Positions 30,714-33,525 of a stretch of 64,000 nucleotides of DNA are shown here, one piece after another. The notes below the pieces were generated by a model, which ran no database searches, was not told where the DNA came from, and saw only the letters and a program-made list of their open reading frames with translations. The stretch comes from Elusimicrobiota bacterium (GTDB taxonomy: Bacteria; Elusimicrobiota; Elusimicrobia; UBA1565), in contig JACPXC010000007.1 in the NCBI GenBank assembly GCA_016196755.1, forward strand, positions 1 through 64,000, read 5' to 3'. The number at the start of each line of letters is the position of its first letter. Positions within the stretch are counted from its first letter, which is position 1. The position numbers and the translations under genes are program-made.

Positions 30714-31325
30714 ATGAGCGCCGCCCTCCTGCTCCTCAACGGCCCCCTGACCGACCCCGCGCTGGTCAAGCGCCGCGCCGCCGCCGCCGGGCTCGTCGTC
30801 TGCGCCGACGGCGGCGCCCGCCACGCCGTGAAGCTCGGCATTCAGCCCCGCGTCGTGGTCGGCGACTTCGACTCCCTTCCCAAACCCTTGCCGCGCTGGA
30901 AGGGCACCACCTACCTCTTCGACGACGACCCCGAGCTCTCCGACTTCGAGAAATCCCTGCGCTTTCTCAAAGGCGCCGGCGCTTCCCAGGTCTGGATCGC
31001 CGGCCTCTGGGGCGGGCGGCCCGACCATCAACTCGTCAACCTCGCCGTCTTCGAGTCCTGGTCCAAGAAGCTCCACCTCGGCGTCGTCGACCCGGGCTGG
31101 GCCAACGTGGCCGGGCCGGGCAAGCACCGCATTCCCTGCCCGGCAGGGGCGAACATAAGCATCGTCCCGGCCGGTACGACGGCCGTGGTGTCGACCAAGA
31201 ACCTCAAGTACCCTCTAAAAAAAGCCCGCCTAACGCGCTCCAGCCGCGGCCTCTCCAACGTCGCTCTGCGTTCGCCCATCGAGGTGACGGTCCACTCCGG
31301 GCGGGTCTGGGTCGTCCTTCCCTAA
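30714..31325 (+). CDS. thiamine pyrophosphokinase
   Basis: A 203-residue protein with the TPK pattern: VVCADGGARHAVKLGIQPRVVVGDFDSLP (metal-binding DFDS), DPELSDFEKSLRFL (usually KDxTDxE, here slightly altered), WGGRPDHQLVNL and TRSSRGLSNVAL (usually TRGLSNE). It transfers pyrophosphate from ATP to thiamine to give the cofactor used, for example, by the transketolase-like enzyme at 49 kb. No TPP riboswitch precedes it. Ends three bases before a small GAGAC-AAAA-GTCTC hairpin at 31326-31339. Confidence 0.88.
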   Translation: MSAALLLLNGPLTDPALVKRRAAAAGLVVCADGGARHAVKLGIQPRVVVGDFDSLPKPLPRWKGTTYLFDDDPELSDFEKSLRFLKGAGASQVWIAGLWGGRPDHQLVNLAVFESWSKKLHLGVVDPGWANVAGPGKHRIPCPAGANISIVPAGTTAVVSTKNLKYPLKKARLTRSSRGLSNVALRSPIEVTVHSGRVWVVLP

Positions 31326-31352: not shown

Positions 31353-31381
31353 TTGAAAGGAAGGGCCCCAAGGGCTACACT
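31353..31381 (+). promoter_or_regulatory. strong leaderless promoter of the second FecR gene
   Basis: TTGAAA at 31353-31358, 17-base spacer, TACACT at 31376-31381 (five of six matches each). ATG 31389 follows after seven bases, so transcription should begin at the start codon. It is the clearest full -35/-10 example of the leaderless geometry in this window. Confidence 0.7.
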
Positions 31382-31388
31382 TGAGGCA

Positions 31389-32141
31389 ATGAAAACACTT
31401 GCCCGTCCCCTCTTCGCGCTTGCCTTGGTCTCGACGCTGGCTCTGCCGTCTCGCGCCCTCTTCGGCTGGGGTGAGAAGCCCGCCGAGAGCGGCCCCCTCG
31501 GCGCCGTCCTCACAGAGGTCGCGGGCACGGTCACGCTTAAGCGCGCCTCCGGCGGCGACTACGCCCCCGCGGCCAGCCAGACGCCGATCGAGACCAACGA
31601 CACCATCAAGGTGGGTAAGGACGGCCGGGCCGTCCTCATGTTCCTCGACGGCTCCAAGATGGAGCTCCGGTCCGAATCCGTCTTCGCCGTGCTGGCCCAC
31701 ACCCCCAAGAAGGTCGAGGTCAAGATCGACGTCGGCACCCTCAAATTCTGGATCAAGAAAGTCGCCCAGCGGCGCAGCTATAAGATGCGCACCCCCACCG
31801 CCGTGGCCTCCGTGCGCGGCACCGAAGGCCAGCTCGACGTCTCCCCCGACGGCGACACCACTCTCAAGCTCACCGAAGGCCGGGTGGACTTTGCCGACAA
31901 CCGCGGCAACAACGTCACCGTCAACGCCAACGAGCAGATCACCTCGACCGACGATAAGGGTCTCGAGGGCGCCGCGAAGACGAGCCTCGAGGGCTCGACG
32001 GGCGGCACGGAGACCGAGACGGACGAGGCGAAGAAGGAAGAGACCGAAGAAGGCGGCGAGGGCGATACCTTGACCAACTTCAAAAGCGACAGCAGCAACA
32101 ACCCGGCTCAGACGCAGGCCGTGAGCAACTCCACGCCGTAA
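31389..32141 (+). CDS. secreted FecR-domain protein
   Basis: A 250-residue product with a signal peptide (MKTLARPLFALALVSTLALPSRA). Residues about 40-175 are a FecR domain: LTEVAGTVTLKRASGGDY, NDTIKVGKDGRAVLMFLDGSKMELRSES, KMRTPTAVASVRGTEGQLDV and LTEGRVDFADNRGNNVTV. The C-terminal 60 residues are acidic and disordered (TETDEAKKEETEEGGEGD). No transmembrane helix beyond the signal. It has its own strong promoter at 31353 and a strong terminator at 32164, so it is mainly a single-gene unit. Confidence 0.85.
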   Translation: MKTLARPLFALALVSTLALPSRALFGWGEKPAESGPLGAVLTEVAGTVTLKRASGGDYAPAASQTPIETNDTIKVGKDGRAVLMFLDGSKMELRSESVFAVLAHTPKKVEVKIDVGTLKFWIKKVAQRRSYKMRTPTAVASVRGTEGQLDVSPDGDTTLKLTEGRVDFADNRGNNVTVNANEQITSTDDKGLEGAAKTSLEGSTGGTETETDEAKKEETEEGGEGDTLTNFKSDSSNNPAQTQAVSNSTP

Positions 32142-32160
32142 GCCGAGAGACTCTTTAGAG

Positions 32161-33525
32161 ATGTCGACGCCCGAAAGGCTGGCCCTTTCGGGCGTCGATT
32201 TTTTCCTTCTGGCCGCCTACCTGGCCGCCACCGTCTGGCTGGGCCTGCGCGCCGCGCGCTCCAGGGGCATGGCGGACTACGTCCTCGCCGGCCGGGGGCT
32301 CTCCCTCCCCGCCTTCGTCGCCACCCTCGTGCCGAGTTTCTTCGGCGGCACCCTGGGCGTGGGCGAGTACGCCTGGCGCAACGGCCTCTCGAACTGGCTG
32401 GTCCAGGGCGTCCCCTACTACGTCTTCGCGCTGGTCTACGCGTTCTGGCTGGCCCCGCGCGTGCGCGCCCGCGCGGGGCTCACCATCCCCGACCACCTCG
32501 AGGCCGCCTACGGCCGTCCCACGGCCGCGCTGGGGGCCTTGCTCGTGTTCCTGCTGGCCAGCCCGGCCGACGAGTTCCTGATGCTGGGCACCCTGGCGCG
32601 CTGGTCGACCGGCTGGAGCCTGGCCGTCTGCGTCGTCCTGACCGCCGCCGCCTCGACCGTGTTCCTCAGCCGGCGCGGCCTGCGCGCCGGCGTGGGCGCC
32701 AACCGCCTCGAGTTCCCGGTCATGTACCTGGGCTTCTTCGTCGTCCTGCCGTTCGCGTTCCGGGCCGTGGGCGGCTTCGGGGGCATGGCGGCGGCCCTCC
32801 CCACCGGCCATCTCGACTGGACCGGCGGCCAGAGCCCGGCGACGATCGGCGGCTGGTGGCTCATCGCCCTGTGGACCTTCGTCGACCCCGCCTTCCACCA
32901 GCGCGTGCTGGCCGCCAAGGACGAGCGCACCGCGCGGACCGGCATCGCGCTCTCGGCGGCCTGCTGGTTCGTCTTCGACGCGATGACGACCACGGCCGGG
33001 CTCCTGGCCCGCGCGCGCCTGCCGGACCTGGCCGAGCCGCTGGCGGCCTACCCCGCCCTGGCCGAGGCCGTCCTGCCCCCGCTGTTCAAAGGCCTCTTCA
33101 TCGCGGGCGTGGCGTCGTCGACCTTGGCCGCCGCCGCCTCGACCACCCTGCTCTCGGCCATCAGCCTGGGCCGCGACGCCGCCGGGCGCTTCGGCCCCCC
33201 GGCCGACGAGGAGACCGTCCAGCGCCGCACCGGCGCGGCGCTCGTCGTCACCGCCGCGCTAGGCGCGGCCATGGCGCTGGCCCTGCCGTCGGTGGTGGCG
33301 CTGTGGTACACCGTGGGCTCCTGCCTCATCCCTGGGCTCCTGGTGCCCATGGCGGCGGCGTATTGGGAGCCGCTCAAGGTCGGCCCGCGCGCCGGCCTGG
33401 CCTGCTCCGCGGCCGGCGTGGGCGCGGCGACCCTGTCGTGGGCGGGCGGCGCCGAAGCGCCCTTCGTCTACGGGTTGGCGGCGTCGCTGACGGCTTGGGC
33501 GGCCGGACGGGCGCTCAAGCGCTGA
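32161..33525 (+). CDS. sodium/solute symporter (SSS family)
   Basis: A 454-residue membrane protein with about 12-13 hydrophobic helices. The SSS pattern begins VDFFLLAAYLAATVWLGLRAARSRG and continues YVLAGRGLSLPAFVATLVPSFFGGTLGVGEYAWRNG and VDPAFHQRVLAAKDERTARTG. Family members import sugars, amino acids, vitamins or carboxylates with sodium; the substrate cannot be told. The first 15 codons lie on a perfect terminator hairpin with T-tract (32164-32204): DFF is encoded by the T-run. Either the gene is regulated by this structure or the true start lies further in. Confidence 0.85.
   Translation: MSTPERLALSGVDFFLLAAYLAATVWLGLRAARSRGMADYVLAGRGLSLPAFVATLVPSFFGGTLGVGEYAWRNGLSNWLVQGVPYYVFALVYAFWLAPRVRARAGLTIPDHLEAAYGRPTAALGALLVFLLASPADEFLMLGTLARWSTGWSLAVCVVLTAAASTVFLSRRGLRAGVGANRLEFPVMYLGFFVVLPFAFRAVGGFGGMAAALPTGHLDWTGGQSPATIGGWWLIALWTFVDPAFHQRVLAAKDERTARTGIALSAACWFVFDAMTTTAGLLARARLPDLAEPLAAYPALAEAVLPPLFKGLFIAGVASSTLAAAASTTLLSAISLGRDAAGRFGPPADEETVQRRTGAALVVTAALGAAMALALPSVVALWYTVGSCLIPGLLVPMAAAYWEPLKVGPRAGLACSAAGVGAATLSWAGGAEAPFVYGLAASLTAWAAGRALKR
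32164..32204 (+). terminator. intrinsic terminator inside the start of the symporter gene
   Basis: Arms TCGACGCCCGAAAGG (32164-32178) and CCTTTCGGGCGTCGA (32184-32198) are perfect complements of 15 bases around a 5-base loop, followed directly by TTTTTT (32199-32204). It stands 22 bases after the FecR stop, the usual place for a terminator, yet overlaps codons 2-15 of the symporter reading frame. Confidence 0.9.

Follow-up and report, generated by a model that had tools for sequence, protein, structure and literature searches.

The window analysed here is a stretch of 64,000 nt (positions 1 to 64,000 of contig JACPXC010000007.1, forward strand) from an Elusimicrobiota bacterium, whose genome serves as the reference (G000) in a comparison with two congeners (G001 and G002). 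Three co-directional genes lie at the locus, coding for a thiamine pyrophosphokinase (thiN), a FecR-domain protein and a sodium/solute symporter, and this gene order is common to all three genomes. The features are as follows:

30714..31325, plus strand, thiN, thiamine pyrophosphokinase gene (TIGR01378, 5.5e-36), also 5' of FecR in G001 and G002
31353..31381, plus strand, FecR promoter, TTGAAA-17 nt-TACACT (scan score 9/12)
31389..32141, plus strand, FecR-domain protein gene (PF04773, 1.1e-12), with orthologues 5' of the symporter in G001 and G002
32142..32163, plus strand, 22-nt spacer from the FecR stop to the stem, containing the symporter ATG
32161..33525, plus strand, SSF sodium/solute symporter gene, ATG start, 454 aa (PF00474, 5.5e-16)
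32164..32178, plus strand, 5' arm of the putative terminator stem, symporter codons 2-6
32179..32183, plus strand, 5-nt loop, CTGGC
32184..32198, plus strand, 3' arm of the putative terminator stem, symporter codons 8-13
32199..32204, plus strand, T6 (U-tract), codons 13-15 (GAT TTT TTC)

The symporter scores 58.9 bits against the Pfam SSF family (gathering score 22.8); it matches TIGR00813 under the curated cut-off (1.1e-22), and a PDB search returned SGLT1 only, with a low score. The FecR promoter is sigma-70-like, and both its TACACT and the 17-nt spacing to the TTG hexamer recur in G001 and G002. The stem begins 22 nt 3' of the FecR stop, within symporter codons 2-15, an ampC-type placement. 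Given its own promoter and a putative terminator 22 nt past its stop, FecR would seem to form a self-contained unit of one gene, and the hairpin, placed as a FecR terminator, would most likely end the FecR transcript.

The anatomy of the hairpin agrees with the original prediction, which had described a 15-base stem, a 5-base loop and T6 encoding residues 2-15 of the symporter. The arms are 100% complementary over 15 bp, T6 follows the stem immediately, the reading frame runs from the ATG at 32161 through both, and G32163 could contribute an additional G-U pair. A stable GC-rich stem, a short loop and a U-run at its foot are the hallmarks of an intrinsic terminator, and all three are present. 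By itself the hairpin folds at about -28 to -30 kcal/mol; the 91-nt region that holds it reaches -38.5 kcal/mol (z -3.9), a stability equalled by none of 200 shuffles. Moreover, none of 193 genes has a more stable start region (-4 to +45) than the symporter, at -32.0 versus a mean of -13.0 kcal/mol, so that translation of the symporter should drop too.

Elements of this kind are rare in the genome. On the contig (396 kb, 70.6% GC) we found 155 hairpins with a T-rich 3' flank, among which the one at the symporter start has the top score for stem and T-run and only about five others resemble strong terminators. A second scan of the contig omits it, the stem having been lengthened there across a mismatch and into the T-run. 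T6 occurs just 23 times and T5 101 times, counting both strands of the 396 kb. Terminators of hairpin and T-run shape are also rare in a wider sample of G000 (740 kb, taken as stretches), where this hairpin is the sole perfect stem of at least 15 bp with a T-run.

In order to separate the demands of the protein from those of the nucleic acid, codons 1-17 were replaced synonymously according to the codon usage of gene starts (n=4000). With usage taken from one contig, also in the case of G001, the observed stability was reached in 19 of 4000 recodings of G000 and the T-run in 112, the corresponding counts for G001 being 17 and 50; both features together appeared in 0/4000 for either genome. The bases therefore appear to be constrained beyond the protein, and amino acids and codon usage are insufficient to explain the hairpin and T-run. 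This supports a terminator-like element, under nucleotide-level constraint, that overlaps the first codons of the symporter. Stem and T-run also contain rare codons (fraction of synonyms: GAA.11, AGG.03, CTT.03, GAT.08, TTT.06), but in rare-codon content codons 2-16 come no higher than 47th among 220 gene starts; being weak alone, this argument was dropped as proof of constraint in favour of the recoding test.

Within the three genomes of the genus the hairpin is found in two. In G001 the ATG is the same, nine outer pairs keep their bases unaltered, the inner stem is a shifted one of 4 bp, and the hairpin, weaker overall, folds at -27.2 kcal/mol; the T5 of G001 is built from different codons (CTT TTT) and is separated from the stem by 3 nt. 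The paired variation that the original prediction proposed as a check among orthologues did not appear: between the two sequences, the nine outer pairs are unchanged, the other pairs are mostly broken or wobble, and no change is compensatory. G002 has neither the hairpin nor the T-run at the FecR-symporter junction and has lost the ATG as well, so the genus can do without the element. In this genome (L002:1450-1590) the FecR stop lies inside the symporter frame, which from the upstream stop onward offers no ATG, GTG or TTG before codon 29; this may reflect an unusual start, an assembly error or decay. The lack of the hairpin in G002 and of compensatory changes in G001 would suit a functionless palindrome that arose by chance in coding DNA. 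However, such a palindrome would have to account for two features that no synonymous recoding of either genome combined, and order-2 Markov simulations of the contig gave only 0 or 1 perfect stems of at least 15 bp per contig, with no T-run even required. We regard chance as extremely unlikely.

The overlap with the symporter depends on where the gene starts. Homologues at the order level are without the symporter's first ~10 codons, and many of them, homologues in a sister family among them, begin at the residue aligned with its glycine 11; among the genomes seen, the segment that bears the hairpin is therefore confined to this genus. A start 3' of the hairpin, for instance at CTG codon 17, which is present in all three genomes, would be in keeping with these shorter homologues and with the missing early start codons of G002, and would place the hairpin in a leader with no overlap. 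Nonetheless, G001 retains the same ATG, and in G000 the next in-frame ATG, GTG or TTG after 32161 is codon 37. Codons 7-13 differ across the three genomes mostly synonymously (CTG/CTC, CTT/CTC, GAT/GAC), which suggests that the start segment is translated, and initiation at codon 17 would truncate the first helix. The later start, offered in the original prediction as the alternative, is thus weak, and we consider it unlikely.

Another question is whether the symporter has a promoter of its own. On contig C37 of G000, the first base of TANNNT falls most often at -12 relative to the start codon (15 of 193 gene starts), and 28/193 starts carry one at -13 to -11, which points to leaderless genes. 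In G001, TGTCATAAT precedes the symporter, with a hexamer (CATAAT) spanning positions -12 to -7 relative to the ATG, that is, at the peak spacing. Together with the exceptional stability of the start region, this hexamer would fit a symporter mRNA that begins at its own ATG and carries the hairpin as a translational silencer or 5' stabiliser, the T-run being incidental. However, G000 has GACTCT in the position of the box and no clear promoter between FecR and the symporter, and a T-run of five or six, rare as T5 is, has been retained in both genomes via different codons. We therefore give this explanation only a slight probability. With no clear promoter in front of the symporter in G000, the simplest reading is a terminator with leak-through.

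How translation might act on such a terminator is a further point. The original prediction held that a ribosome initiating at 32161 would melt the hairpin and could so prevent termination. In this reading the ribosome sits on the 5' arm before the polymerase arrives at the U-run, keeps the hairpin from forming and permits transcription of the symporter. An initiating ribosome covers about 15 nt beyond the start, and the 5' arm (32164-32178) falls within this reach. Growth-rate-dependent antitermination at the ampC attenuator, as cited in PMC6045580, is a precedent in kind. By our estimate, the ribosome would need to be on the ATG within ~14 nt of polymerase travel, from exposure of the start to the U-run, and several observations speak against this. 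Upstream of the ATG, Shine-Dalgarno matches do not exceed 3 nt, the start region is the exceptionally stable one described above, and the hairpin prevails in every fold that begins at 32142 or further upstream. No upstream antiterminator pairing rivals the stem, the best competitor for either arm reaching about -17 vs -29 kcal/mol. G002, moreover, does without the hairpin. Initiation in E. coli requires 1-2 s; terminators function there even within 100 bp of the beginning of a coding region, and translation lowered the efficiency of one placed 30 bp past the AUG by only about 10% (PMC4824070). We consider a switch coupled to the start codon very unlikely. Ribosomes that terminate are a different matter: in E. 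coli, those that stop no more than about 27 nt 5' of a terminator reduce termination, and its efficiency is near zero at short stop-to-terminator spacers and about 0.9 at 30 bp (PMC4824070). The ribosomes that finish FecR are therefore a likelier influence on the hairpin than initiating ones.

Overall, we consider it probable that the hairpin is a genuine intrinsic terminator of the single-gene FecR unit, that it overlaps the symporter start, and that leak-through gives a low level of the symporter. The FecR unit would extend from the promoter at 31353-31381 past the stop at 32141 to an RNA end near 32200-32204. As the symporter frame in this genus appears to begin ~10 codons 5' of that of order-level homologues, the terminator would have come to lie in codons 2-15. 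Most polymerases from the FecR promoter would stop at the hairpin, and the fraction that reads through would produce a FecR-symporter mRNA and hence little symporter. The folded hairpin would mask the symporter start on both RNAs, lowering translation further, and on the terminated RNA, where no stop codon would follow, the masked start would also prevent initiation. Any translational tuning of termination would probably come from the ribosome finishing FecR, 22 nt 5' of the stem. A counterweight to the favoured terminator is that intrinsic terminators are rare on the contig and that Rho is present in the genus (as is tmRNA); the response of this polymerase to such elements is a prediction.

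Compared with known pairs of terminator and attenuator, the unusual part is the overlap with a coding start. The ampC hairpin is located in an untranslated leader, unlike the present case, in which hairpin and U-run fall inside the first 15 codons. Additionally, the E. coli ampC promoter lies within the last frd gene, whereas none is evident before the G000 symporter. In Escherichia coli, one element is both the frd terminator and the attenuator of ampC (Jaurin 1981; Grundstrom and Jaurin 1982; both as cited in PMC6045580), and the nlpD1 terminator is likewise the penA attenuator (PMC6045580). In those pairs the intrinsic terminator of an upstream gene sets the level of the next co-directional gene by read-through, a likeness which here is predicted from the sequence. 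Clostridial ABC-importer operons also have their gene ratios set by leaky internal terminators (PMC9045158); there, similarly, a stem-loop and U-run lie between co-directional genes and the downstream gene is part of a transporter. The clostridial terminators are intergenic and were assayed with Northern blots and qPCR (PMC9045158); ours, a predicted one, overlaps the downstream coding sequence. The terminator engineered into the start of an E. coli coding region, within its first 100 bp, likewise lies just past an AUG in an operon and works despite initiation; it is synthetic, at 30 bp past the AUG (PMC4824070), and here the element is natural, with the stem directly after the ATG.

In a more elaborate version of the terminator reading, a single natural dual-coding hairpin would end the upstream RNA, supply the codons for the transporter's N-terminus and shut off its start codon. 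How much read-through occurs would depend on the ribosome finishing FecR. We put this forward tentatively, as unlikely in its entirety. If true, the FecR-to-symporter ratio would be fixed by the overlap rather than by an intergenic region. Terminators predicted in coding regions are often dismissed as false; the hairpin at the symporter start passes the recoding test in two species and, standing at the boundary of a unit, makes a clean case for a terminator and a coding start that share bases. Gene callers and terminator finders that skip coding sequence will overlook such boundaries.

A riboswitch platform was ruled out for the locus, as no Rfam family matched at gathering score between 24000 and 40000 and the genus is without a TPP riboswitch. 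In a genome of another genus (G039), a TPP riboswitch lies directly 5' of the symporter orthologue (L013:1402-1490). Together with thiN two genes 5' of the symporter in this genus, this hints at a thiamine-related substrate.

Origin of the hairpin from a dispersed repeat was also excluded, the genome holding a single copy at up to 3 mismatches. Other palindromes do recur. Eight near-perfect long ones of the form GGTGTCAG...CTGACACC are spread across contigs of G000:

C6:101046-101107
C18:10951-11016
C20:17830-17894
C23:8862-8928
C28:271418-271482
C41:96057-96121
C54:32386-32438
C58:57888-57952

In six of these eight the outer arms are identical, and the inner tip, though it varies among the copies, remains self-complementary. 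A similar-looking palindrome (GGTGTCAGGCCTTG...CAAGGCCTGACACC) directly abuts the ATG of the symporter orthologue in G035 (L012:1427-1500). Finally, a second family, GATCGAAGAATCGCG / GATCGAAGGATTGCG, has 15-bp stems, and two of its copies are ~230 bp apart on C37:

C37:140852-140887
C37:141081-141117
L076:3128-3165
L074:375-411
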